From positions 62,001-126,000 of the forward strand of contig JAGBEG010000007.1 in NCBI GenBank assembly GCA_017937095.1: a stretch of 64,000 nt of DNA, read 5' to 3'. Source of the stretch: Roseburia sp. GTDB lineage: Bacteria; Bacillota; Clostridia; Lachnospirales; Lachnospiraceae. Shown piece after piece: positions 13,806 through 33,777 of the stretch; positions within the stretch are counted from its first letter, which is position 1; every line of letters begins with the position of its first letter. The notes beneath the pieces were generated by a model. It was given only the letters and a program-made list of their open reading frames with translations. It did no database searches and had not been told where the DNA came from. A program made the translations under genes and the position numbers.

Positions 13806-13830
13806 TAATGCAACAATATGATACATATTT

Positions 13831-13995
13831 TGATAGAGGTTGCGTGCTTTAAGAGTAGTTTTCCGGATGCGGCAGGCGCAGGGGAAGGAGAGTGAAAGGG
13901 GAGCACGCCGAAAGGGTGGAAGATCTGCATTTCCGCTGCTTGGGCGTAAGGCGAATAACCTTGCGACTGTCATCTTCACAGATGGGGCGCTATCG
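13831..13995 (+). promoter_or_regulatory. Lysine riboswitch (L-box) aptamer
   Basis: The region shows the ordered conserved blocks of the lysine aptamer: GATAGAGGTTGCG at 13832, AAGAGTAG at 13851, GAAAGGGGAGCACGCCGAA near 13895, an AACCTTGCGACTGTCATC block near 13957, and the closing GGGGCGCTATC at 13984 that pairs with GATAGAGG. The core positions match the recalled Bacillus lysC leader. The aptamer lies upstream of dapA and is followed by a terminator at 14038, so lysine binding should stop transcription. A repeat element separates the riboswitch from dapA. Confidence 0.92.
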
Positions 13996-14037
13996 GTTCT
14001 ATAGAATGACATGCCATATGCAGGGCAGAAGAATCAG

Positions 14038-14221: not shown

Positions 14222-14283
14222 ACGAATCGTAACAGCACACAAAGATGTACCATACGCATATATTATTTTCAGGAGGATTTGTG

Positions 14284-15174
14284 ATGGCAATTTTTAAAGG
14301 TGCAGGTGTGGCGATCGTCACGCCGATGAAAGACAATGAAGCTGTAAATTATGACAAATTAGAGGAACTGATCGAGTGGCAGATTGCGCAGGGAACGGAC
14401 TGCATCATCATCGCCGGGACCACCGGAGAGAGCTCGACGCTCACTACGGAGGAGCATTCCAAGGTCATAAAAGAGGCAGTGCGCATGGTAAATCACCGTA
14501 TTCCGGTTGTGGCGGGGACGGGCTCGAACTGTACGAGAGAGGCGGTGCATCTCTCGCAGGAAGCAGAGGCGGCAGGCGTGGATGGACTTCTCGCCGTGAC
14601 GCCATACTACAATAAGGCGACGCAGGGTGGTCTGATCCGCTATTACACGGAGATTGCGGAGGCGGTAAAGCTTCCGATCATTATGTACAACGTGCCGGGA
14701 AGAACCGGCTGCAACATTCTGCCGGAGACGGCGTCGAAGCTGTTTTATGATGTGGAGAACATCGTTGGAATCAAGGAGGCGACCGGAAGTGTCGCACAGG
14801 CGTCAAAGTTAATGTACCTCACCGACGGCAAAATCGATCTGTATTCGGGCGAGGACGGCATCGTGGTGCCGCTGATGGCAATCGGAGCAGTCGGCGTGAT
14901 TTCCGTGTGGTCGAATATTGCGCCGAAGGATGTGCATGATATGTGCGCGGCGTTTGCGGCGGGCGATATCGCGAAGGCAAGAGCACTCCAGCTTGCGGCG
15001 CAGCCGCTTGTAGACGCGCTGTTTTCCGAAGTCAATCCGATTCCGGTAAAGAAAGCGTTGAATCTGATGGGGAAGGAAGTGGGAACGCTCCGCTCCCCGC
15101 TGACAGAGATGACAGAGGAGAACGCGGCAAAGCTGGCTGAGGCGATGAGAAACTACGGAATCAGGCTTGCTTAA
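14284..15174 (+). CDS. dapA: 4-hydroxy-tetrahydrodipicolinate synthase
   Basis: Condenses pyruvate with aspartate semialdehyde, the first committed step of the diaminopimelate/lysine branch. The 296-residue beta/alpha barrel has GTTGESSTL near residue 44, YYNKATQGGLIRYY with the active-site tyrosine, and the Schiff-base lysine in VGIKEATGS near residue 162. The ATG at 14284 follows AGGAGG at 14270. It is transcribed with dapB 104 bases downstream, although a hairpin lies between. It is controlled by the lysine riboswitch at 13831 unless the intervening repeat has decoupled it. Confidence 0.96.
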   Translation: MAIFKGAGVAIVTPMKDNEAVNYDKLEELIEWQIAQGTDCIIIAGTTGESSTLTTEEHSKVIKEAVRMVNHRIPVVAGTGSNCTREAVHLSQEAEAAGVDGLLAVTPYYNKATQGGLIRYYTEIAEAVKLPIIMYNVPGRTGCNILPETASKLFYDVENIVGIKEATGSVAQASKLMYLTDGKIDLYSGEDGIVVPLMAIGAVGVISVWSNIAPKDVHDMCAAFAAGDIAKARALQLAAQPLVDALFSEVNPIPVKKALNLMGKEVGTLRSPLTEMTEENAAKLAEAMRNYGIRLA

Positions 15175-15278: not shown

Positions 15279-16052
15279 ATGATCAAGGCAATCATGAATG
15301 GATGTAACGGTAAGATGGGTCAGGTTATCACGGGAATCTGCAGGGAGGATTCCCAGATTGAGATCGTGGCGGGAATCGATGTGTACGACGGAGTGAAGAA
15401 CGATTACCCGGTATTTCCGAATATTTCGGTCTGCGACGTGGGAGCGGACGTCATCATTGATTTCTCCAATGCCAAGGCGGTGGACGATCTTCTGGTGTAC
15501 AGCGTGGACAAAAATATTCCGGTCGTTTTGTGTACGACGGGACTCTCCGAGGAGCAGTTGGCGCGTGTGCAGGAGGCGTCGAAGAAGGTTGCCGTCTTAA
15601 AATCCGCCAACATGTCTCTGGGCATCAATATGCTGATGGAACTGCTCAAGCAGGCGGCAGCTATCTTGGCTCCGGCGGGCTTTGATATGGAGATCGTGGA
15701 GAAGCACCACAACCAGAAGCTCGACGCACCGAGCGGCACGGCGCTTGCGCTGGCGGATTCCATGAACGAGGCGCTTTCGGGGGCGTATGAGTACAAGTTT
15801 GACAGGAGTAAGGAGCGCAAGAAGAGGGACCCGCACGAAATCGGTATCTCGGCAGTGCGCGGCGGCAGCATCGTCGGGGAGCACGAGGTGATTTTTGCAG
15901 GACTGGACGAGGTGATTACCTTTGAACATACCGCATATTCCAGAAGCGTGTTCGGCAAGGGCGCAGTCGAAGCGGCGAAGTTCCTCGCAGGAAAGCCGGC
16001 AGGCTTTTACGGTATGCCGGACGTCATCAAGGCGACAATGCAGCAGGCGTAA
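15279..16052 (+). CDS. dapB: 4-hydroxy-tetrahydrodipicolinate reductase
   Basis: Reduces the DapA product to tetrahydrodipicolinate with NAD(P)H. The 257-residue protein has the dinucleotide-binding start MIKAIMNGCNGKMGQVI, the loop VLCTTGLSEEQ, and the catalytic/substrate segment EKHHNQKLDAPSGTAL near residues 144-160, then the C-terminal hexamer-forming strand region. The ATG at 15279 has AGAGAGG upstream. Its product is the substrate of DapL, encoded at 2829, so the dapE/dapD steps are not needed. Confidence 0.96.
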   Translation: MIKAIMNGCNGKMGQVITGICREDSQIEIVAGIDVYDGVKNDYPVFPNISVCDVGADVIIDFSNAKAVDDLLVYSVDKNIPVVLCTTGLSEEQLARVQEASKKVAVLKSANMSLGINMLMELLKQAAAILAPAGFDMEIVEKHHNQKLDAPSGTALALADSMNEALSGAYEYKFDRSKERKKRDPHEIGISAVRGGSIVGEHEVIFAGLDEVITFEHTAYSRSVFGKGAVEAAKFLAGKPAGFYGMPDVIKATMQQA

Positions 16053-22710: not shown

Positions 22711-25692
22711 ATGTCTGAAACGAAGAAGGACAGAACAATTTTCCGTGTGATTTTATTCCCGCTGCTAAGTGTGCTTGCATTTGAGGTGCTGTTCATGATG
22801 GCGGCAATCCAGTTGGGCGGGGTGATCGGGCGGCTGAATCAGAATGCGCAGGATATGCTTGCCAGGCAGACAGAGAACCGGGAGCATTATCTGGTAGATG
22901 AAATGACCGATAACTGGTCCAATCTTGATATGCTCTCGTCGGAGATTGACGCTAAGGTACAGAGCCGGTTGGAGCAGCAGCAGTTGTCGCTTGCGGATCT
23001 GAACAGCGGGAATGCGGACTGCGTGGATCTGCTTAAGGACATTTATCCTGATCTGATCAGTACGATGTACAATAAGCAGGTATCAGGCATTTTTGTCGTG
23101 TTAAATACCAGCGACCTGGACGGCGCGGACGTTCCGGAGACGATGCCCGGCATTTACCTGAGAGACTTAGATCCAACGGCGACGCCGTCAGAGCGGAACG
23201 CGGATCTTCTGCTGGAGCGCGCTCCGGTTGATCTGGTTTCGTCGGGACGCATTGCGACGGATGCGGGATGGCAGCCGGCGTTTTCTAAGAGTGACAGTGT
23301 GGATCAGGCGTTCTTTTATAATCCATTTCAGGCGGCATATCTCGACGACCGGATGCTGGAAGCGGAAAACTACGGCTATTGGACGACAGAGCCCTACAGT
23401 CTGTCCGGGACGGGGCGGTCGTCTATCGCCTATTCGGTCCCGCTCATTCTGGATGACGGAACGGTCTACGGTGTGCTTGGAATCGAACTGCTGACCGATT
23501 ATGTGGAGTCGCTGCTGCCGGCTTTAGAGCTTTCGGACGACAATCAGGGAGCGTATCTGCTGGCAACGGTTTCCGGGGATGAGACGCTCTTAAAACCGGT
23601 AGTTCTTTCGGGCGACATGCTAAAGCTTTCCGATATCAGCGGGGAGGGGGTTGCGCTCTGCGGGGACGGCAGTGAGATCTGTGATGAGAACGGTGAGTAT
23701 TACGGCGAGGCAAGACGGCTGGTCATCTACAATAGTCATGCGCCCTTTGACGGGGACAAGTGGTATCTGGTGGGAATCAGCTCCAGGGAAAGCCTGTTTG
23801 CTTTTTCCAGACAGATACAGGCGCTGCTGCTGTTGTCAATCGTCATGACATTTGTTATTGGTCTGGCGGGCATTCTTCTGGTGAGTTATCGCCTTTCAAA
23901 GCCAATCCGTCAGTTGTCCGATGAGGTGGAGAAGGCGCAGAGGGATAATAATCTGCCGGAACTGTCTGCGACCGGCATCCGTGAGATCGATCAGTTCGCG
24001 ACCTCCATTTCCTATCTGGGCAGGGAGGTAGTGGAGGCATCCACGCGTTTCTTAAGCATTATGGATATGGTAAGCGTGGAGCTTGCCGGGTATGAGCTGC
24101 AGGAGAATACGCAGAGCGTTTACGTGACAGATAACTATTTCCCGCTGCTGGGGATGAACGATGTTGATGTTGACAGCCTGACGCCGGAAACATTTATGAA
24201 ACTGCAGAAGGAGATCAGGGAGAAGTTCTTTTACTCGGTATCTGAGGATGGAAGTACGATATACAGTGTGCCGCAGGCGGGCGGCACGGTGCGGTATCTG
24301 CGCTCTGAGTACAAGGAGCAGGACGGCCGCCGCGTCGGAGTGATCGAGGATATCACGGCGTCCGCACTGGAGAAGATGCGGATTGAGAGGGAGAGAGACT
24401 GTGATAATCTGACGAAGCTCTATGCGAGAAGAGGCTTCCGGAGAGAGGCGGACGCACTTTTCCTAAAGCCGGAAACCTTAAAACATGCAGGGCTTCTGAT
24501 GATCGATCTGGACAATCTGAAATCGACGAACGACAGATTCGGTCATAATTTTGGCGATCTGTATATTCAGACGGCAGGCAGATGCTTTGTGGAAAATACG
24601 CCGGAGGATACGCTGTGCGCCCGCATGTCGGGAGACGAGTTCGTTGTATTGTTCTATGGATATGACAGCAGGGAAAGCATCCGGGAGAAAATCGACGCGC
24701 TTTATGAAGCAATCGGCAAGGTCTCTTTTGTCCTTCCAAACGGAGAGAATATGGGACTCAGCGCATCGGGTGGCGTCGCGTGGTATCCTGAGGACAGCAC
24801 GGATCTGTCCGAACTGATGAAATATGCTGATTTTGCAATGTATCAGGTAAAGCGCTCCAACAAGGGCGTACATAAGGAATTTGACGCCGGAGGCTTCCGG
24901 CAGCAGGTGCTTGCAAATCAGCGCAGGCTGGAATTGCATCAGATGTTAGAGACGGGAAATGTAAACTATCATTTTCAGCCGATTTTTGAATGCCAGGAAG
25001 GAAAGACTTATGCCTATGAAGCGTTGATGCGCGTGCCGTTTCAGACGCTTGGCTCGCCGGAGACGGTCCTTCGTGTCGCGCGTGAGGAAGGACGGATGCA
25101 CGATATCGAATGTCTTACGTTTTTCCGCGCGTCGGAATGTTATAAGGCATTGCTGGAGCAGGGAATCGTGGAACAGGACGCCCTGCTGTTCATCAATTCC
25201 ATTGCAAACGAGTCTATGACCGAGGAGGAGGAACGGCAGTATCACGAGGAATTTGAGATGCTGCAGCAGCGTATCGTGGTCGAGATAACGGAAGCGGAAC
25301 ATATGGATATAGAGCTGGTGCGCCAAAAGAGCAAGGTCGAGGGCTTTTCCGGTATGTTCGCGCTCGACGATTACGGAAGCGGCTATAATACGGAAATCAA
25401 TCTTCTGGAACTCCACCCGTATTTTATCAAGGTGGATATCAGTATTGTGCGGGATATTGATTCCGACTACAACAAACAGCAGATTGTAAATAATATCGTA
25501 ACCTATGCCCACAAGCGGGATATGCTTGTTGTGGCGGAGGGGCTGGAGACGGCGAAGGAGCTTGAGATGGTGCTGGAACTCGGCGTGGATTTATTGCAGG
25601 GCTATTTCCTTGCGCGTCCGGGCGAGACGCCGCCTGCCATTAGTGAGGATGCATTGAGGATTGTCAGGGAGCACCGACCGGACTTAGGATAA
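22711..25692 (+). CDS. Membrane receptor with Cache-like sensor, HAMP, GGDEF and EAL domains
   Basis: A 993-residue cyclic-di-GMP enzyme. Transmembrane segments at about 12-35 and 370-392 bracket a 330-residue extracellular sensor, probably a double Cache domain. HAMP (about 390-440), a PAS-like segment, GGDEF (about 570-730) and EAL (about 745-985) follow. The GGDEF motif reads SGDEF with no RxxD inhibitory site visible before it (TPEDTLCARMSGDEF). The EAL domain keeps YEALMR, FINSI, VEITE, LDDYGSGYN, FIKVD, VAEGLET and LLQGY, so phosphodiesterase activity is likely. The ATG at 22711 has GAGGTGGG upstream. It is paired with the upstream binding protein. Confidence 0.92.
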   Translation: MSETKKDRTIFRVILFPLLSVLAFEVLFMMAAIQLGGVIGRLNQNAQDMLARQTENREHYLVDEMTDNWSNLDMLSSEIDAKVQSRLEQQQLSLADLNSGNADCVDLLKDIYPDLISTMYNKQVSGIFVVLNTSDLDGADVPETMPGIYLRDLDPTATPSERNADLLLERAPVDLVSSGRIATDAGWQPAFSKSDSVDQAFFYNPFQAAYLDDRMLEAENYGYWTTEPYSLSGTGRSSIAYSVPLILDDGTVYGVLGIELLTDYVESLLPALELSDDNQGAYLLATVSGDETLLKPVVLSGDMLKLSDISGEGVALCGDGSEICDENGEYYGEARRLVIYNSHAPFDGDKWYLVGISSRESLFAFSRQIQALLLLSIVMTFVIGLAGILLVSYRLSKPIRQLSDEVEKAQRDNNLPELSATGIREIDQFATSISYLGREVVEASTRFLSIMDMVSVELAGYELQENTQSVYVTDNYFPLLGMNDVDVDSLTPETFMKLQKEIREKFFYSVSEDGSTIYSVPQAGGTVRYLRSEYKEQDGRRVGVIEDITASALEKMRIERERDCDNLTKLYARRGFRREADALFLKPETLKHAGLLMIDLDNLKSTNDRFGHNFGDLYIQTAGRCFVENTPEDTLCARMSGDEFVVLFYGYDSRESIREKIDALYEAIGKVSFVLPNGENMGLSASGGVAWYPEDSTDLSELMKYADFAMYQVKRSNKGVHKEFDAGGFRQQVLANQRRLELHQMLETGNVNYHFQPIFECQEGKTYAYEALMRVPFQTLGSPETVLRVAREEGRMHDIECLTFFRASECYKALLEQGIVEQDALLFINSIANESMTEEEERQYHEEFEMLQQRIVVEITEAEHMDIELVRQKSKVEGFSGMFALDDYGSGYNTEINLLELHPYFIKVDISIVRDIDSDYNKQQIVNNIVTYAHKRDMLVVAEGLETAKELEMVLELGVDLLQGYFLARPGETPPAISEDALRIVREHRPDLG

Positions 25693-25699
25693 AATCTGA

Positions 25700-25728
25700 T
25701 TGCATTTTCACATGGGGTGTGTTATACT
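25700..25728 (+). promoter_or_regulatory. Promoter for the structured leader RNA
   Basis: TTGCAT at 25700 and TATACT at 25723, spaced 17 bases, just after the GGDEF/EAL stop codon. Predicted start near 25735. No comparably good promoter is seen between the terminator at 26062 and the decarboxylase gene. Confidence 0.7.
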
Positions 25729-25734
25729 TCAAAT

Positions 25735-26061
25735 CACATGAATGCGAAACGTTTTTCATGCAAATATTTGCCCACCAAGTGATTGGTTAAGCCCATACGG
25801 ACAGGCGGGGCAGCTGCCGATTGTGGAATAATCCACGTTATTGATTGAGTTAGGAGCTCAAATTTTATAAGTTGATGACAATTGCGGCATGGCGCTGTAG
25901 TTGCCTACGAATCGTATGCGATAGAGATATCACTTGTGAAACGGTCAATAAGAGTAGTAAAAGCAAATATTTGCTGGCGAAGGCGCCAATTTTGACTCTG
26001 AAAATAGTTTTTGCAGCATGTAGGGAAGATGTACATAAAGTATGACTATGGAAATATGACA
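25735..26061 (+). ncRNA. Unassigned structured RNA or leader upstream of the polyamine operon
   Basis: About 330 bases with no credible coding frame, between a promoter and a terminator. Local stems include ACCAA/TTGGT near 25775, GTGGA/TCCAC at 25823, TTGAG/CTCAA at 25845, and the GGCGCC palindrome near 25983. The 12-base palindrome GCAAATATTTGC occurs twice, at 25760 and 25963, so each copy can fold on itself or pair with the other. The GGACAGG at 25799 could pair with the CCTGTC arm of the terminator. No match to tmRNA, RNase P, T-box, cobalamin or GEMM consensus was found by eye. It could be an independent RNA of a known class (raiA or 6S should be tested) or a riboswitch-like leader. Confidence 0.6.
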
Positions 26062-26092
26062 AAGACAGGTGATGTATACACCTGTCTTTTTT
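26062..26092 (+). terminator. Terminator ending the structured RNA (possible attenuator)
   Basis: AGACAGGTG pairs with CACCTGTCT, followed by six T residues. It lies 184 bases before the arginine decarboxylase start and may be conditional. Confidence 0.92.
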
Positions 26093-26264
26093 GCGCGAAT
26101 AAGCAGAGGAAGATGGAAAAAGCAGGCGGGTTTCTGCTTGCAGAAAAGCCGGACTGTATTTTTCCATCTGACGAGCAACGCGAGTTTCAGACAAAGTCTG
26201 AAACCTGCTTATTCGCGCAGGGAACAGGTTGGAATCGCACTTCGGCGAATAAGCAGAGGAAAGG
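26093..26264 (+). promoter_or_regulatory. Alternative-pairing element overlapping the decarboxylase ribosome site
   Basis: GCGCGAATAAGCAG (26093) is perfectly complementary to CTGCTTATTCGCGC (26205). A second copy, GCGAATAAGCAGAGGA (26245), identical over 16 bases to 26095-26110, lies directly on the ribosome binding site AGAGGAAAGG. The central antisense segment can therefore pair with either copy. Inner stems GATGGAAAAA/TTTTTCCATC, TTTCTGC/GCAGAAA and GTTTCAGAC/GTCTGAAAC stabilise the first arrangement. Pairing with the second copy would mask the ribosome site. Confidence 0.7.
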
Positions 26265-26275
26265 ATCATAAGCTC

Positions 26276-27745
26276 ATGGAATCAGGATCCCAGATGCGCG
26301 CTCCGGTATATGAAGCGCTGGAAAAGTTAAAAAAGCGGAGAGTTGTTCCCTTTGACGTGCCGGGGCACAAGAGAGGGCGTGGAAACCCTGAATTGGTGGA
26401 ACTTCTCGGGGAGAAGTGCGTGAGTCTGGACGTCAATTCCATGAAGCCGCTCGACAATCTGTGCCATCCGGTGTCTGTCATCAAGGAGGCAGAGGAACTG
26501 GCGGCGGAAGCATTTCGCGCGGATCATGCCTTTTTTATGGTGGGAGGTACGACATCCTCGGTACAGAGCATGGTGCTCTCGGTCTGTCGTGCGGGAGATA
26601 AGATCATTCTGCCGCGCAATGTGCACAAGAGCGTCATCAATGCGCTTGTGCTCTGCGGAGCAGTTCCGGTCTATGTGAACCCCGAGGTGGATAAGAGGCT
26701 TGGAATTTCACTCGGCATGGAGATTTCCGAGGTGGAACGGGCGATTCTTGACAATCCGGGCGCGGTGGCAGTGCTCGTCAACAATCCGACTTACTACGGA
26801 ATCTGTTCCGACCTTCGTTCCATCGTAAAGCTGGCGCATGAGCATGAGATGCTCGTACTCGTGGATGAAGCGCATGGAACGCATCTTTATTTCGGAGAGA
26901 ATCTCCCGGTCTGCGCGATGGACGCGGGGGCGGATATGGCTTCTGTCTCCATGCACAAGTCGGGCGGGAGCCTGACGCAGAGTTCGCTGCTTCTGACCGG
27001 GAAAAATGTCAATTGGGAATATGTGAGCCAGATCATCAATCTGACGCAGACCACGAGCGCATCGTATCTTCTGATGTCAAGTCTTGATATTTCGAGAAGA
27101 AATCTTGCACTGCGCGGAAAAGAGTCGTTTGCAAAAGTGGCGCGGATGGCGGAGTATGCAAGAGAGGAAATCAATGCGATCGGCGGATATTACGCATACG
27201 GCAAGGATCTGGTGAACGGCGGAAGCGTCTATGATTTCGACGTCACAAAGCTGTCCGTGTATACAAGGGATATCGGGCTGGCGGGGATCGAGGTCTACGA
27301 TCTGCTGCGGGATGAGTACGATATCCAGATCGAGCTTGGCGATATTGCAAATATTCTTGCCTATATCTCAATCGGCGACCGTATACAGGATATCGAGCGG
27401 CTTGTGGGGGCGCTTTCGGATGTGAAGCGTCTGTATTCGAAGGATCCTGCAAAGATGTTAAATACGGAATATATCAATCCGACGGTTCTCGTGTCGCCGC
27501 AGACGGCATTTTATGCGGAAAAAAACTGTATGCCGATCCGTGAGACTGCCGGGAAAATCTGCGGGGAGTTCGTGATGTGCTATCCGCCGGGAATACCGAT
27601 TCTTGCGCCGGGGGAGATGATTACGCCGGAGATTATCGAATATATTATCTACGCAAAGGAAAAAGGCTGCTCCATGCAGGGAACAGAGGATCCGAAGGTA
27701 GAGTATCTGAATGTGCTCGTAGATGAGCGTCAGGTGTGGAAATAA
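26276..27745 (+). CDS. speA: Arginine decarboxylase (Orn/Lys/Arg decarboxylase fold type I)
   Basis: Decarboxylates an amino acid, most likely arginine to agmatine because agmatine deiminase and N-carbamoylputrescine amidase follow in the same operon. The 489-residue protein resembles Bacillus SpeA: VPFDVPGHKRGRG near residue 22, FFMVGGTTSSVQSM, VDEAHGTHLYF near residue 203 and the PLP lysine in SVSMHKSGGSLTQSS near residue 228, then the small C-terminal domain (CYPPGIPILAPGE). An in-frame extension to 26069 was rejected since it is encoded by the leader's inverted repeats. First gene of a six-gene polyamine operon. Confidence 0.9.
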   Translation: MESGSQMRAPVYEALEKLKKRRVVPFDVPGHKRGRGNPELVELLGEKCVSLDVNSMKPLDNLCHPVSVIKEAEELAAEAFRADHAFFMVGGTTSSVQSMVLSVCRAGDKIILPRNVHKSVINALVLCGAVPVYVNPEVDKRLGISLGMEISEVERAILDNPGAVAVLVNNPTYYGICSDLRSIVKLAHEHEMLVLVDEAHGTHLYFGENLPVCAMDAGADMASVSMHKSGGSLTQSSLLLTGKNVNWEYVSQIINLTQTTSASYLLMSSLDISRRNLALRGKESFAKVARMAEYAREEINAIGGYYAYGKDLVNGGSVYDFDVTKLSVYTRDIGLAGIEVYDLLRDEYDIQIELGDIANILAYISIGDRIQDIERLVGALSDVKRLYSKDPAKMLNTEYINPTVLVSPQTAFYAEKNCMPIRETAGKICGEFVMCYPPGIPILAPGEMITPEIIEYIIYAKEKGCSMQGTEDPKVEYLNVLVDERQVWK

Positions 27746-27765
27746 TAAGAAAGAGGTATCAGCCA

Positions 27766-28635
27766 GTGGAACTTTGGTTTTCGGATTATCAGACGGATAA
27801 AGTAAAGCTATCTGTCAAGGTGGAGAAACAGCTTTTTGGGGAGCAGACAGAGTTTCAGAGAATCGATGTGTTTGATTCCAAGGAGTTCGGACGCTTTTTA
27901 AGCTCGGACGGAAGTATTGTTTTCTCGGAAAAGGATGAGTTTATTTATGATGAAATGATCGTGCATGTGCCGATGGCGGTGCACCCGCATGTGAGGAAGG
28001 TGCTTGTCATCGGAGGCGGCGACGGCGGAGTGGCAAGAGAATTGTCTTACTATGCGGAGATTGAGCAGATCGATGTGGTCGAGCCGGACCGGATATTCGT
28101 GGATGTATGCAGGGAATTTTTCCCCGACAATGCATGCGGTCTTGAGGATGAGAGAGTGCGGATTTATTATGAGGACGGGCTTAGATTCTTAAGAACGAAG
28201 CATGGGGAGTATGATCTGATTATCAATGATGCAATCGATCCGCTCGGGCATACCGCGGGACTGTTTACCAAGGAATTTTATGGGAACTGTTATCGCGCGC
28301 TGAACGATGAAGGAATCATGGTCTATCAGCACGGAAGCCCGTTCTATGACGAGGATGAGGAGTCCTGCCGCGTGATGCACCGCAAAGCAAGCCACAGTTT
28401 TCCAATCAGCCGCGTCTATCAGGCGCATATTCCGACCTGTTCCTCCGGCTACTGGCTGTTTGGATTTGCGTCGAAGAAATATCACCCGCTGACCGATCTG
28501 GACGCCGCGCGCTGGAAGGCGAGAGGGATTAAGACATGGTATTATACGACGAATCTGCACAAGGGCGCGTTTATGCTGCCGAAATATGTGGAGGATATGC
28601 TGGAAGAGGAAGAAGACCGGAAAGTAAAAGAGTGA
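27766..28635 (+). CDS. speE: Spermidine synthase (polyamine aminopropyltransferase)
   Basis: Transfers an aminopropyl group from decarboxylated SAM to putrescine. The 289 residues show the N-terminal MELWFSDYQT-type beta domain (GTG start at 27766, preceded by AAAGAGG), then VLVIGGGDGGVARELSYY near residue 85, DVVEPDR, and the active-site loop NDAIDPLGHTAGLFTKEFY near residues 153-172. No adenosylmethionine decarboxylase gene lies in the operon, and the next two genes supply an alternative spermidine route, so this enzyme is unexpected here. It may use dcSAM made elsewhere or act on another acceptor. Confidence 0.9.
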   Translation: MELWFSDYQTDKVKLSVKVEKQLFGEQTEFQRIDVFDSKEFGRFLSSDGSIVFSEKDEFIYDEMIVHVPMAVHPHVRKVLVIGGGDGGVARELSYYAEIEQIDVVEPDRIFVDVCREFFPDNACGLEDERVRIYYEDGLRFLRTKHGEYDLIINDAIDPLGHTAGLFTKEFYGNCYRALNDEGIMVYQHGSPFYDEDEESCRVMHRKASHSFPISRVYQAHIPTCSSGYWLFGFASKKYHPLTDLDAARWKARGIKTWYYTTNLHKGAFMLPKYVEDMLEEEEDRKVKE

Positions 28636-28745: not shown

Positions 28746-30005
28746 ATGGGAAGATTATTGATTATTGGCTGCGGAGGCGTTGCAGGTGTTGCGATTCACA
28801 AGTGCTGTCAGAACAGCGGCACGTTTTCTGAAATCTGTATTGCGAGCCGCACCAAGGAGAAATGCGATGCGTTAAAGGAGAAGCTTTCCGGGACGACCGA
28901 CACGGTGATTACCACGGCGAAGGTGGATGCAGACAATGTGGATGAACTGATCGCGCTGATTCAGGATTACAAGCCGGACGCTGTGCTCAATGTCGCCCTG
29001 CCGTATCAGGATCTTACGATTATGGATGCGTGCCTTGCATGTAAGGTAGACTATATTGACACCGCAAATTATGAGCCGGAGGATACCGACGATCCCAAGT
29101 GGCGCGAGATTTACGAAAAGCGCTGCAGGGAAGCGGGATTTACCGCATACTTTGATTATTCCTGGCAGTGGGCGTATCAGGAGCGCTTTAAGGAGGCGGG
29201 AATCACGGCGCTGCTCGGCAGCGGCTTTGATCCGGGCGTGACGAGTGTGTTTACCGCGTATGCATTGAAGCATTATTTTGATGAGATTGAGTATATTGAT
29301 ATTTTAGACTGCAACGGCGGCGACCACGGGTATCCGTTTGCGACGAACTTCAACCCGGAAATCAATCTGCGTGAGGTTTCCGCAAACGGTTCTTACTGGG
29401 AGAACGGTCACTGGGTAGAAACAGAACCGATGGAAATTAAAAGAGAATATAACTTTCCACAGGTGGGCGAGAAAGATATGTATCTGCTTCATCACGAAGA
29501 GATTGAGTCTCTGGCGAAGAATGTGCCGGGAGTAAAGAGAATCCGTTTCTTTATGACCTTCGGACAGAGTTATCTGACGCATATGAAATGTCTGGAGAAC
29601 GTGGGGATGCTCTCGACGTCCCCGATTCTGTATGAGGGCAGGGAAATCGTTCCGATTCAGTTCTTAAAGGCGCTTCTGCCGGATCCGGCATCTTTGGGAC
29701 CGCGCACTGTCGGCAAGACGAACATCGGATGCATCTTTACCGGAAAGAAGGACGGCAGGGAGAAGACGATTTATATTTACAATGTCTGCGATCATCAGGA
29801 GTGCTACAGGGAGGTCGGTTCTCAGGCGATTTCCTATACGACCGGCGTTCCGGCGATGATCGGCGCGGCGCTTGTGGTAGACAAGGTATGGGATAAGGAC
29901 GGCGTATTCAATATTGAGGAATTCGATCCCGATCCGTTCATGGATATGTTAAATCAGTACGGACTTCCGTGGGTGGTAGATGAAAATCCGCAGACCGTGG
30001 AGTAG
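28746..30005 (+). CDS. Carboxyspermidine/carboxynorspermidine dehydrogenase (saccharopine dehydrogenase-like)
   Basis: Reductively couples putrescine with aspartate semialdehyde to carboxyspermidine using NADPH. The 419-residue protein has the Rossmann start GRLLIIGCGGVAGVAIHKC, then VLNVALPYQDLTIMDACL and LGSGFDPGVTSVFTAYALKHYFDE, typical of the Lys1-like CASDH family. The ATG at 28746 follows GGAGGAAAG. It directly precedes the matching decarboxylase, as in the spermidine route common in gut anaerobes. A TATAAT-like sequence at about 28722 may add an internal promoter. Confidence 0.92.
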   Translation: MGRLLIIGCGGVAGVAIHKCCQNSGTFSEICIASRTKEKCDALKEKLSGTTDTVITTAKVDADNVDELIALIQDYKPDAVLNVALPYQDLTIMDACLACKVDYIDTANYEPEDTDDPKWREIYEKRCREAGFTAYFDYSWQWAYQERFKEAGITALLGSGFDPGVTSVFTAYALKHYFDEIEYIDILDCNGGDHGYPFATNFNPEINLREVSANGSYWENGHWVETEPMEIKREYNFPQVGEKDMYLLHHEEIESLAKNVPGVKRIRFFMTFGQSYLTHMKCLENVGMLSTSPILYEGREIVPIQFLKALLPDPASLGPRTVGKTNIGCIFTGKKDGREKTIYIYNVCDHQECYREVGSQAISYTTGVPAMIGAALVVDKVWDKDGVFNIEEFDPDPFMDMLNQYGLPWVVDENPQTVE

Positions 30006-30056: not shown

Positions 30057-31313
30057 ATGGATTGGAATGAACTTCCGACTCCATGCTATGTTGTGGATGA
30101 GAAGAAATTAAAAGAAAATTTAACAATTTTGCAGCGACTGGAGCAGGATACCGGATGCCACATTCTTCTGGCACAGAAGGCGTTTTCCATGTATGCACTC
30201 TATCCGCTGATCGGGAGCTATATCAGCGGCACGACGGCGAGCGGACTCTTTGAGGCGAGACTTGGGCGTGAAGAGATGGGGAAGGAGAATCATGTCTTTG
30301 CTCCGGCATACAAGGAAAAAGATATGGTGGAGCTGGTGAAGCTCTGCGACCACATCATCTTTAATTCCTTTGCGCAGTATGAGAAGCACCGTGAGACAAT
30401 CTTTGCATGGAACAGCAGGCTTAGGCGCAGAGACAGTGCCGCCTGCATGGATGAGGAAGCGGCGGCTGTCAGAGACGACGGCGGTACGGGCAGAAGCATC
30501 AGCGTTGGCATCCGCATCAATCCCGAGTGCTCTACGCAGGAAGGACACGCTATTTACGATCCCTGCGCGCCCGGTTCCAGACTGGGCGTGATTTTTGCGG
30601 AATTTGAAAAGGGGCTGGCGGCGCTTGGAATGGAGCGGGAGGCGGACGGCGCGTATGCACTTCCGGCGGATATAGAGGGGCTGCATTTTCACACGCTCTG
30701 CGAACAGGATGCAGATGATCTTGTGACGACATTTTATGCGTTCGAAGAAAAGTTTAAACCATATTTAAGAAAAGTAAAATGGCTGAATATGGGCGGCGGG
30801 CATCATATTACCCGTCCGGGTTATCAGGTGGAAACGTTAAAGGCGCTTCTTCAATATATTCGTGACACGCATCAGCTTGAAGTCTATCTGGAGCCGGGGG
30901 AGGCGATTGCGTTGAATGCCGGGTATCTGGTGACAGAAATCTGCGATATCGTGCACAATGGGATGGACATTCTGATTCTTGATGCGTCGGCGGCATGCCA
31001 TATGCCGGATGTGCTCGAGATGCCGTACCGTCCGCCGCTTCGCGGCGGCTTCCCGGCAGGTGAGAAGCCGTACACCTACCGGCTTTCTTCACTGACCTGC
31101 CTTGCAGGGGACGTCATTGGCGATTATAGCTTTGAACACGAGCTTCATGTGGGAGAGCGTCTGGTATTTGAGGATATGGCGATTTATTCGATGGTGAAGA
31201 ACAACACCTTTAACGGGATACCGCTTCCGGGCATTGCGCTGCTTACAGAGGACAAGACGCTGCACATGGTAAAGGAATTTGGATATGAAGATTTTAAAGG
31301 ACGATTATCTTAA
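30057..31313 (+). CDS. nspC: Carboxyspermidine/carboxynorspermidine decarboxylase
   Basis: Decarboxylates carboxyspermidine to spermidine; a fold-type III PLP enzyme related to LysA. In 418 residues it shows TPCYVVDEKKLKENL at the start, the PLP lysine in LLAQKAFSMYALYP near residue 41, GLHFHTLCEQDADDL, LNMGGGHHITRPGY, and YLEPGEAIALNAGYLV. Residues about 120-145 are an insertion (RRRDSAACMDEEAAAVRDDGG) absent from most relatives I recall. The 3' end overlaps the next gene, indicating translational coupling. Confidence 0.93.
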   Translation: MDWNELPTPCYVVDEKKLKENLTILQRLEQDTGCHILLAQKAFSMYALYPLIGSYISGTTASGLFEARLGREEMGKENHVFAPAYKEKDMVELVKLCDHIIFNSFAQYEKHRETIFAWNSRLRRRDSAACMDEEAAAVRDDGGTGRSISVGIRINPECSTQEGHAIYDPCAPGSRLGVIFAEFEKGLAALGMEREADGAYALPADIEGLHFHTLCEQDADDLVTTFYAFEEKFKPYLRKVKWLNMGGGHHITRPGYQVETLKALLQYIRDTHQLEVYLEPGEAIALNAGYLVTEICDIVHNGMDILILDASAACHMPDVLEMPYRPPLRGGFPAGEKPYTYRLSSLTCLAGDVIGDYSFEHELHVGERLVFEDMAIYSMVKNNTFNGIPLPGIALLTEDKTLHMVKEFGYEDFKGRLS

Positions 31314-32838
31314 ATCAGGAATTAATAATAATGATATGACGGACGATTCATCCGCGCCTGCCGGGACTCCGGCGGCGGATGGTTTTTTTATGCCGGGAGA
31401 GTTCGAGCCACATGCGGGCTGTATCATGGTCTGGCCGGAGCGTCCGGGCTCATGGATTTATGGCGCAAAGGCGGCGCGCAGGGCGTTTGCCGATGTAATC
31501 GCTGCTGTCGCGGAAAGTGAGAAGGTCTATGTGGCTGCCAATGAGAGCTGTCTTGCATCAGCGATAGAGGTCTTGTTTGAAGGACAGAGCAGACCGGGGA
31601 AGCGTGCCGGAACGTTTTGCTGGGATGAGGAGACTGCCGGTTGCGGGACGTCTGCTGGGGATGAGGAGGCTGCCAGTTGTGAGATATTTGTCGGACGGGA
31701 GAAGTCTGCCAGGGATGAGACGATCGCCGGACGCAGGACAAGCAGTGACGACATGAAGGATAGCAAGGCGCAGATAGGCGAAGCTCGCCGGGAGCCTCTC
31801 ACGTGGCGGAGAAATGTGGAAATCTTTATCGCAGAGACAGACGATGCGTGGGCGCGGGATATTGCGCCTACGTTCGTTGTGAAAACGTCGCGTCAGACAG
31901 AGGATGCGCAGGCAGAAAACAGGCTGCCGCGTGAAAAAAATATGGTGCAGTCTGGTAATCCGGCGCGGTTGGTGCGCGCTGTGAACTGGGAATTTAACGC
32001 ATGGGGCGGCGCGGTAGACGGTCTGTATGCTTCGTGGGAGAAGGATAATGCTTTTGCAAAATATTTCTGCGGAAAATACGGCTATAAGTTTTATGATGCC
32101 GCACCATTCGTGCTGGAGGGCGGTTCGATCCACAGCGACGGAGAGGGTACGGTTCTGGTGACGGAGAGCTGTCTTTTAAGCGCGGGAAGAAACCCGTCGC
32201 TTGCGAGGGAGCAGATTGAGGAGCAGCTAAAGCGCTATCTTGGCGCGAAGAAGATTTTGTGGCTTCCGCGTGGAATATATCAGGATGAAACCAACGAGCA
32301 TGTGGACAACGTGTGCGCGTTTTTGCGTCCGGGCGAGGTCGTGCTGGCGTGGACGGATAATCAGGATGATCCGCAGTACCCGCTGTCTGCGGCATGTATG
32401 GAATATCTTGCACAGGCGACGGACGCAAAGGGGAGGAAGCTTACCATCCATAAGCTTCCGGTTCCCGATATTCCGGTCTGCATCACAGAGGAAGAACTTA
32501 AGGGCTATGCGTTCGAGGAGGGCGAGGATGAGCGCGAGGCAGGAGAGCGCCTTGCCGCGTCTTACGTCAATTTCTATTTTTCCAACGGTGCAGTGGTGAT
32601 GCCTGTGTTCGGCGGGGAAAACGAGGAGAGTGACAGGCGGGCAGTCATGTTGATGGAGCAGTGGAACCCGGAGCGGAAGGTCATTCCGGTTGCTGCGCGG
32701 GACATTTTAGTCGGCGGCGGAAATATTCACTGCATTACGCAGCAGATTCCGGCAGGCATATCCGAAAGCTGTAGTGCAGTGACGGAAGATATGACAGTAT
32801 CACAGGACAGATTGGCAGGCACGCCGGAAATGCCGTGA
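31285..32838 (+). CDS. aguA: Agmatine deiminase with low-complexity insertions
   Basis: Hydrolyses agmatine to N-carbamoylputrescine. Family motifs are present: FEPHAGCIMVWPERPGSW near residue 35, DAWARDIAPTFV, NWEFNAWGG, LEGGSIHSDG, HVDNVCAFLRPGEV and the catalytic cysteine in GGGNIHCITQQIP near residue 482. At 517 residues it is about 150 longer than usual. Most of the excess is at about 108-175, where DEETAGCGTSAG-type units recur, with a shorter insert after the RDIAP segment and an acidic tail. The ATG at 31285 follows AAAGGA at 31272 and overlaps nspC by 29 bases; an ATG at 31336 is an alternative. Confidence 0.9.
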   Translation: MKILKDDYLKSGINNNDMTDDSSAPAGTPAADGFFMPGEFEPHAGCIMVWPERPGSWIYGAKAARRAFADVIAAVAESEKVYVAANESCLASAIEVLFEGQSRPGKRAGTFCWDEETAGCGTSAGDEEAASCEIFVGREKSARDETIAGRRTSSDDMKDSKAQIGEARREPLTWRRNVEIFIAETDDAWARDIAPTFVVKTSRQTEDAQAENRLPREKNMVQSGNPARLVRAVNWEFNAWGGAVDGLYASWEKDNAFAKYFCGKYGYKFYDAAPFVLEGGSIHSDGEGTVLVTESCLLSAGRNPSLAREQIEEQLKRYLGAKKILWLPRGIYQDETNEHVDNVCAFLRPGEVVLAWTDNQDDPQYPLSAACMEYLAQATDAKGRKLTIHKLPVPDIPVCITEEELKGYAFEEGEDEREAGERLAASYVNFYFSNGAVVMPVFGGENEESDRRAVMLMEQWNPERKVIPVAARDILVGGGNIHCITQQIPAGISESCSAVTEDMTVSQDRLAGTPEMP

Positions 32839-32883: not shown

Positions 32884-33777
32884 ATGAGAAAAATAAAAGT
32901 GGCGGCGATTCAGATGCGCTGCACAAAATCCTTAGATGAGAATTTGAAACATGCAGAGGCGAAGGTGTGTCAGGCGGCGGCAGAGGGCGCGAACGTGATT
33001 TTGCTCCCGGAGCTTTTTGAACGGGAATATTTCTGTCAGCAGCGCCAGTACGGATTTTATCATTATGCGAAGCCGACGCTTGAAAATGAGGCGGTGCAGA
33101 TGGGGCTGCGCCTTGCAAAGGAGCTTGGCGTCGTACTGCCGGTCAGCTTTTACGAGAGAGAGGTCAATAGTCTGTACAATTCCGTTGCCTGCATCGATGC
33201 GGACGGAAGTCTGCTTGGGGTGTACCGCAAGACGCATATCCCGGACGACCATTATTATCAGGAAAAATTCTATTTTACGCCGGGAGATACCGGATTTCAG
33301 GTGTTTGAGACGCGGTACGGCACAATTGGTGTCGGCATCTGCTGGGATCAGTGGTTTCCTGAGACGGCGCGCTGTATGGCGTTAAAGGGCGCAGAACTTT
33401 TATTTTATCCGACGGCAATCGGTTCTGAGCCGATTCTGGAGTGCGACAGTATGCCGCATTGGAGGCGCTGTATGCAGGGGCATGCAGCGGCGAATCTGAT
33501 GCCCGTGATTGCGGCGAACCGGATCGGAACGGAAACGGTAGAGCCGTGCGAGGAGAATGGCGGTCAGAAATCCTCGCTGTGCTTTTACGGTTCATCCTTC
33601 ATGACCGACGAGACGGGAGAAATCTTAAAGGATGCCGGAAGGGATGCGGAGGAAATTCTGGTGCAGGAATACGATCTCGCAGAGCTTGCAGCAAGGCGTC
33701 TCGAGTGGGGATTGTTCCGCGACAGAAGACCGGAGTGCTATGGAGCAATCGCCGGAGGAAACCAACAGAGAAAATGA
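32884..33777 (+). CDS. aguB: N-carbamoylputrescine amidase
   Basis: Hydrolyses N-carbamoylputrescine to putrescine, CO2 and ammonia; a nitrilase-superfamily enzyme of 297 residues. The Glu-Lys-Cys triad is visible: LLPELFEREYF near residue 42, YRKTHIPDDHYYQEKFYF near 116, and GVGICWDQWFPETAR near 153. The family's GSEPI and HWRRCMQGHAAANLMPV segments follow. It closes the polyamine operon, 45 bases after aguA, and is followed by a terminator. Together with speA and aguA it gives arginine to putrescine. Confidence 0.95.
   Translation: MRKIKVAAIQMRCTKSLDENLKHAEAKVCQAAAEGANVILLPELFEREYFCQQRQYGFYHYAKPTLENEAVQMGLRLAKELGVVLPVSFYEREVNSLYNSVACIDADGSLLGVYRKTHIPDDHYYQEKFYFTPGDTGFQVFETRYGTIGVGICWDQWFPETARCMALKGAELLFYPTAIGSEPILECDSMPHWRRCMQGHAAANLMPVIAANRIGTETVEPCEENGGQKSSLCFYGSSFMTDETGEILKDAGRDAEEILVQEYDLAELAARRLEWGLFRDRRPECYGAIAGGNQQRK

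Follow-up and report, generated by a model that had tools for sequence, protein, structure and literature searches.

In the available passages of PMC10853860, the proven spermidine riboswitch is a variant of the SAM-I riboswitch that is rare and narrowly distributed. It is found with speE, speB and ldcC genes and acts as a terminator-based OFF switch with spermidine. RNA-level control of a polyamine gene, as proposed here, is also exerted by the speF leader of Salmonella, which acts on ornithine decarboxylase under arginine control in the excerpt of PMC6386406 consulted and which we liken to the present RNA by description only. A further point of comparison comes from Streptococcus pneumoniae, where srn235/F59/Spd_sr49 is tabulated as a 327-nt sRNA at 869478-869804 (PMC12323649, excerpt). 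It occupies the interval between SP0915 and SP0916 and is oriented toward the latter (PMC3395615, excerpt), and SP_0916 is given as arginine decarboxylase (PMC7531197, excerpt). A Tn-seq lung fitness of 0.05 is reported for srn235 and SN20, with no cis explanation in the passage concerned (PMC3395615). The main text of a pneumococcal transcriptome study (PMC6296669) contains no mention of SP_0916, lysine decarboxylase, polyamine or spermidine, and the main texts of three candidate-RNA surveys (PMC2864571, PMC11109978, PMC6429828) contain no mention of polyamine, spermidine, speA, potA, speD or arginine decarboxylase. Within the portions of the open-licence literature at hand we found no riboswitch description of this RNA.

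Here we describe a long leader ahead of a polyamine operon in a 64,000-nt stretch of Roseburia sp. DNA, referred to below as the window. We consider it probable that the RNA from 25735 to 26092 is a riboswitch-type cis attenuator of the speA-speE-lys9-nspC-aguA-aguB operon, with a polyamine as its presumed ligand. The RNA recurs ahead of genes for polyamine synthesis and uptake in many Gram-positive bacteria.

Leader and operon in the window

The features of the locus are collected in Table 1. The first-pass annotation had placed a promoter at 25700, and this placement stands. The predicted boxes, TTGCAT and TATACT (the latter at 25723), are separated by a 17-nt spacer, the -10 box carries an extended TGn, and TATACT occurs at the equivalent position in five of the eight relatives shown (L105, L018, L020, L024 and L028). 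The -35 box scores 3/6, and the promoter falls below the scan threshold. Transcription is predicted to start at about 25735. A count of -10-like boxes, found in 134 of 143 loci, was made without a null and was set aside. From 26092 to speA at 26276 no promoter-like site was found by consensus, in agreement with the earlier statement that no comparable promoter lies between the terminator and speA.

The RNA from 25733 to 26092 folds at -105.5 kcal/mol, compared with -85.8 ± 4.8 kcal/mol for shuffled sequences (z = -4.1; 0/100 shuffles), which bears out its earlier description as structured. The duplicated 12-base palindrome GCAAATATTTGC was also read correctly, with copies starting at exactly 25760 and 25963, and in the computed fold the two copies pair with one another and close a large domain. 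The strong terminator reported ahead of speA was recovered as an 11-bp stem (26061-26089) with a U-tract reaching 26092; a first scan had returned the minus strand only, and a separate search returned the plus strand. The stretch that follows, 26093-26275, has two further partial copies in the genome (74-75% over bases 1-127). It carries GCGAATAAGCAGAGGAA twice, at 26095 and 26245, and an inverted repeat at 26184-26204 lies between the terminator and speA.

Table 1 Features of the leader and operon, with positions in the window.
Feature	Position	Strand	Basis or remark
Upstream GGDEF/EAL-like gene	ends 25692		reading of translation
Promoter (predicted)	25700..25728	+	-35 TTGCAT 25700-25705; extended -10 TGtTATACT 25720-25728
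P0, small hairpin 5' of P1 (tentative)	25737..25760	+	CATGAA/TTCATG; read from sequence
P1, 5' strand	25760..25771	+	first GCAAATATTTGC copy; last 3 bases common to P2; fold, covariation
D1, 5' domain (RF02440)	25769..25820	+	62 bits; contains conserved CCATACGGACAGGC
P2 (in D1)	25769-25773/25808-25812	+	
P3 (in D1)	25774-25778/25783-25787	+	
P5, hairpin GTGGA/TCCAC	25823..25836	+	co-varying helix
D2, 3' domain, absent from Rfam	25838..25959	+	model R1
P6 (in D2)	25838-25844/25945-25951	+	
P7 (in D2)	25845-25849/25857-25861	+	
P8 (in D2)	25863-25872/25932-25941	+	
Switching strand ATCACTTGT	25929..25937	+	in P8 (terminator forms) or paired with 26065-26073 (antiterminator)
P1, 3' strand	25963..25974	+	second GCAAATATTTGC copy; fold, covariation
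Conserved GACTCT, aptamer end	25994..25999	+	can pair with GAGT 25952-25955
Intrinsic terminator	26061..26092	+	11 bp (26061-26071/26079-26089) and U-tract to 26092
Antiterminator partner ACAGGTGAT	26065..26073	+	part of terminator 5' arm
speA-like Arg/Lys/Orn decarboxylase, first gene	26276..27745	+	LdcC/SpeA-type models, below cut-off
speE, spermidine synthase	27736..28635	+	TIGR00417 over cut-off
lys9-like carboxynorspermidine synthase	28746..30005	+	NF043000, E 5e-124, below cut-off
nspC, carboxynorspermidine decarboxylase	30057..31313	+	TIGR01047 over cut-off
aguA, agmatine deiminase	31279..32838	+	TIGR03380 over cut-off
aguB, N-carbamoylputrescine amidase	32884..33777	+	TIGR03381 over cut-off

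Architecture of the conserved RNA

The entire window contains two Rfam matches. One is a lysine riboswitch (RF00168) at 13826-14000, with 108.8 bits, which precedes a dihydrodipicolinate-synthase-like gene (14245-15174); a dihydrodipicolinate-reductase-like gene (15279-16052) lies further downstream, both genes being named from their translations. The other is RF02440, SpF59_sRNA (ldcC RNA), a 54-position model of Rfam type 'Gene; sRNA', which is matched over its full length (1-54) at 25769-25820 with 62 bits (E = 1e-8), above its gathering score of 37.2. This match is the only copy in the source genome. Samples of 250 genomes from the window's family and 348 from its phylum, both including the window's own genome, contain RF02440 in 42 and 14 genomes, respectively, with a single copy in each; among 14 control genomes the model matched in Lactococcus lactis only. 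Searches of 25650-26330 for T-box, SAM-I, raiA, 6S and lysine riboswitch RNAs returned no match up to E = 1. A match to HrrF at 25967-26092, which overlies the terminator, scored 30.4 bits, where the gathering score is 77, with E = 0.0027 in the 681-base search, and was taken as chance. RF02440 and the sub-threshold HrrF are the only Rfam families that appear over 25650-26330 up to E = 1, and the suggested alternatives raiA and 6S find no support there.

The conserved RNA spans about 230 nt across 70 dereplicated homologues, of which Rfam models 54 nt. These 70 loci were drawn from 95 that passed an end-motif regex, and irregular members are under-represented in the alignment as a result of this selection. 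The structure used consists of P1, which encloses the remainder, P2-P4 in D1, P5, and P6-P10 in D2, and 88.1% of its cells are paired in the 70 homologues. Double-change cells number 299, compared with 92.6 in shuffles (0/500), and the covariation score is 0.197, compared with 0.104 in shuffles and at most 0.074 for slid structures. P1 co-varies in the 70 homologues. When covariation was ranked blind to structure over 26,565 column pairs, 8 of the top 10, 9 of the top 20 and 10 of the top 30 pairs fell in the structure. Under a tree-based null only two of the 26,565 pairs are significant at E < 0.05, both of them in the structure, and much of D2 is too conserved for co-variation. The comparison of homologues suggested in the first-pass annotation thus gives covariation above shuffles, with a weak result in the strict tree-based test.

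Several elements deserve individual comment. A separate RNAalifold run recovered P3, P6, P8 and the GAGT/ACTC helix, and its D1 pairs differ from ours. The GAGT/ACTC helix is near-invariant, with 98.9% of cells paired. Pairing of AGAGTC with GACTCT was considered as an extension of P1 (P1a) and rejected, with 51% of cells paired as aligned. At 25792/25805 the window has C-G and most loci have G-C (21 vs 122). The P0 hairpin has weak statistics, being present in 27 of 53 homologues compared with 28% in shuffles, and the anchor regex put it wrongly in some rows, including L001. Taken together, the 5' leader contains a conserved structured aptamer that is backed by covariation.

D2 was modelled on its own (R1) from 45 of 54 rows, which remained after the removal of 16 others, among them the window and its close relatives. 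R1 nonetheless finds D2 at 25838-25959 with 79.1 bits (E = 1.1e-14) and has no other match in the window or the source genome. D2 occurs in 57 of the 250 family genomes and 16 of the 348 phylum genomes, and it accompanies RF02440 in 40 of 42 and 14 of 14 of the RF02440 genomes in the respective samples. Seventeen family genomes have D2 and no RF02440 match. Within 130 nt upstream of these 17 D2-only matches, a diverged D1 with the CGGACAG motif is present in five, a doubtful remnant in one (L178), and none in 11. Sixteen of the 17 have speA, speD or lys9 downstream (the speA of L183 was identified by translation), and the remaining one has only 249 nt of sequence there. Leaders without D1 suggest that D2 and P1 form the constant part of the RNA and that D1 is an optional insert. 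In one genome (G196), two matching D2-only leaders lie 390 nt from each other (L191, G196:C59:11365-15776) before speD-speA-speE; the pair may be a tandem arrangement, the product of a recent duplication or an artefact of assembly. Much of D2 is lost in L037 and L048, and the middle of L105 is shorter; all three keep a hairpin, and by eye its 5' arm matches the remaining strand.

Downstream genes and the terminator

The exact core pattern is found in at least 117 stretches. Among the matches listed (80 loci), the taxa include Lachnospiraceae, Oscillospiraceae, Acidaminococcus, Phascolarctobacterium, Paenibacillus, Bacillus and Neobacillus. In 136 of 146 oriented loci among the matches listed, the same strand carries a polyamine gene whose start is no more than 900 nt downstream; the median distance is 338 nt. 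This gene is speA in 58 of these 146 loci, speD in 42, potA in 20, lys9 in 15 and speE in one. In seven of the ten loci with no polyamine gene, the sequence downstream ends within 236 nt. L071 and L102 fit the pattern without the D2 motif and look like chance matches, of which about one is expected by a rough estimate. The tenth, L015, is a full homologue with both domains and a terminator-like site, and it precedes a lone M28 peptidase gene. In L108 the RNA is followed first by the gene of a P-II nitrogen regulatory protein and only then by that of a potA-like ABC transporter, so the gene within 900 nt is not always the first gene.

Since sampling by pattern could bias this association, 27 matches to the Rfam model were counted separately. 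Downstream of 26 of them lies speA, speD or lys9, the exception being L162, and the TCAATA element lies downstream in all 27. The two sets overlap in that L162 is L015 and L175 is L025; L025 was missed by the orientation regex and entered the counts solely as L175. Pfam and NCBIfam models served to check the gene families. SpeD loci match TIGR03331 over its cut-off, and in each of the 20 potA loci a spermidine/putrescine or polyamine ABC ATPase is the top NCBIfam model, exceeding a curated cut-off in 16 and falling short of it in the rest, two of which are partial sequences. An ORF of L074 presumed to be potD gave no match at E 1e-60. The association of the RNA with genes of one metabolite is consistent.

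Terminators were sought in the 137 loci with at least 330 nt of downstream sequence, to 480 nt from the core. A terminator-like site was found 3' of the aptamer in 108 of them and was not found over this range in the other 29. In 94 of the 108 the terminator ends ahead of the located gene. Among the other 14, one lies inside speA (L047), one belongs to L015, which has no such gene, and 12 run into the assigned start of potA or lys9, which over-long query ORFs have probably placed too early.

The 5' arms of the terminators recur as CGCAAGU, CAAGUGAUG or ACAGGUGAU, and these are complementary to an aptamer strand ...AUCAACUUGUG. In the window, ATCACTTGT and ACAGGTGAT pair over 9 bp, and ATCACTTGT is also the 3' side of P8. 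The expression platform is mutually exclusive with aptamer helices. For the main antiterminator test, the 94 loci were reduced to 88 with a dG of at most -10 kcal/mol and to 79 after dereplication, none being dropped by hand. The mean duplex energy of the 5' arm was -14.39 kcal/mol with the strand of its own locus and -10.97 kcal/mol with those of other loci, and none of 2000 permutations was as low as the own-strand pairing. Controls gave -6.55 kcal/mol for shuffled arms and -6.39 kcal/mol for the 3' arm. The switching strand is the best aptamer site for the 5' arm in 55 of the 79 loci. An earlier run agrees, with the best site there in 62 of 88 loci; it used 88 of the 108 terminators (dG at most -10 kcal/mol, dereplicated), with L129, L030 and L096 dropped by hand. 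Twelve D2-only leaders were scanned without a control, and nine reached -12.0 kcal/mol or lower, the other three being weaker. Co-variation of the 5' arm with the aptamer strand indicates that aptamer and terminator belong to one cis-acting switch.

This strand also revises the switching element. GGACAGG at 25799, which had been proposed as a competitor for the 3' terminator arm, belongs to the near-invariant core of D1, and the co-varying competitor is instead 25929-25937, which takes the 5' arm. The attenuating layout proposed in the same place is supported by the gene association and by the co-varying antiterminator.

Proposed mechanism and relation to known systems

Based on these elements, the aptamer of about 230 nt, with P1 enclosing D1 and D2, would hold 25929-25937 in P8. 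In that state nothing would keep the terminator at 26061-26092 from forming, and transcription would stop before speA (OFF). With the aptamer unstabilised, 25929-25937 would pair with 26065-26073 and the polymerase would read through (ON). A polyamine, likeliest spermidine, would stabilise the aptamer, turning the operon OFF when polyamines are plentiful. Direct ligand binding, the identity of the ligand and the direction of the switch are inferred; that the ligand favours P8 and termination would follow from usual riboswitch logic and from its fit with feedback control. In the isolated window RNA the terminated fold is favoured by a computed 9.4 kcal/mol at full length and by about 3 kcal/mol before the 3' arm is complete, which suggests that kinetic help or a missing factor is required for the ON state.

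The candidate ligand is chosen from the gene contexts. SpeA supplies putrescine, spermidine is made by SpeD and SpeE, Lys9 and NspC yield spermidine or norspermidine through the carboxy route, and PotABCD takes up both spermidine and putrescine. As the product common to these contexts, spermidine or a closely related polyamine is favoured. In our judgement spermidine itself is about as probable as all other candidates together, and a polyamine of some kind is clearly probable. The ligands first put forward were arginine, agmatine or a polyamine. The last fits every context, whereas arginine and agmatine leave speD, potABCD and lys9-nspC unexplained. A riboswitch that senses a different pathway compound, be it arginine, agmatine, lysine, SAM, decarboxylated SAM or carboxyspermidine, would suit the prominence of speA, the commonest gene (58 of 146 among the matches listed), and the presence of aguA and aguB in the window operon. 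We regard it as improbable given the 20 potABCD and 15 lys9-nspC contexts, which share only polyamines with the rest; the products of these two gene sets are not known to make or use arginine, agmatine or SAM.

Other readings concern the sensor rather than the ligand. Attenuation of the same genes in cis could instead depend on an RNA-binding protein as the sensor, with the conserved fold held in place or let go by it. The co-variation of terminator and antiterminator is silent on the trigger, a protein ligand would leave the same traces, and the preference of the isolated RNA for the OFF state would also suit such a factor. Against this stand the many invariant, structurally embedded bases, spread over about 230 nt in many bacteria, which are typical of metabolite aptamers, and the located downstream genes include no recurrent regulator gene; we consider a protein sensor unlikely. 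A terminator within a long leader ahead of an amino-acid decarboxylase gene also brings to mind attenuation by a leader peptide or T-box, and TTG or GTG triplets do recur in conserved strands (up to 70/70). The best-placed ATG column reaches just 24 of 70, and the T-box search was negative up to E = 1 over 25650-26330; we give this explanation a negligible probability.

The question of a stand-alone sRNA is posed by Rfam itself. The first-pass annotation treated a confident match to a stand-alone ncRNA as evidence against a riboswitch, and the RF02440 match is formally of that kind, being confident and typed as an sRNA; the typing does not agree well with the comparative data. A trans-acting sRNA that merely precedes polyamine genes would accord with this typing, with the tabulation of the pneumococcal RNA as an sRNA (PMC12323649, excerpt) and with the lung fitness of srn235/SN20 insertion mutants noted above (PMC3395615, excerpt). 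It fits poorly with an RNA that is tied to four non-homologous kinds of gene from one pathway and whose antiterminator co-evolves with its terminator, and the pneumococcal RNA is likewise oriented toward the arginine decarboxylase SP0916 in the excerpts cited. We rate such an RNA as very unlikely. A cis-acting anatomy is strongly favoured over a stand-alone trans sRNA gene, and a trans role for the terminated transcript is possible. With the RNA pointing toward SP0916, a cis effect on speA could explain the pneumococcal mutant as well, and an sRNA with a strong fitness phenotype is recast as a possible cis-regulator of arginine decarboxylase.

Returning to the polyamine-responsive attenuator, a broader reading seems to us somewhat better than evenly balanced. 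It would make the RNA one member of a widespread, dedicated and modular class of polyamine riboswitch, distinct from SAM-I, half-hidden in Rfam as an sRNA and including srn235/F59. As part of this reading the class would reach from Lachnospiraceae as far as Paenibacillus, with Streptococcus and Lactococcus added on the strength of the Rfam family, and D2, P1 and the terminator would form the switch with D1 as an optional insert. D1 is possibly a second aptamer, which would make a two-input sensor. If the broader reading is true, the pneumococcal 'virulence sRNA' srn235/F59 is a riboswitch of an agmatine/spermidine operon. The class would also be common in the family to which the window belongs (57 of the 250 genomes sampled), and it comes with a defined switching element that can be tested.

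Comparable RNAs already described differ from the window RNA in several ways. The lysine riboswitch also has a large leader aptamer and is a separate family, with no match at 25650-26330. Like the SAM-I-variant spermidine riboswitch, the window RNA is associated with polyamine genes and is proposed to terminate in the OFF state. Unlike that variant, it has another architecture with no SAM-I match at E = 1, it occurs in 57 of the 250 family genomes, and it adds the speD, lys9-nspC and potABCD contexts. The 54-nt model of RF02440 is equivalent to D1. It covers D1 only and is filed as a Streptococcus sRNA gene, whereas the window RNA adds P1, P5, D2, the terminator and the antiterminator, and loci of the window type span wider taxa. 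What was known is D1, as RF02440, and what appears to be new, within the literature covered, is the riboswitch-like architecture with D2, P1, terminator and antiterminator.
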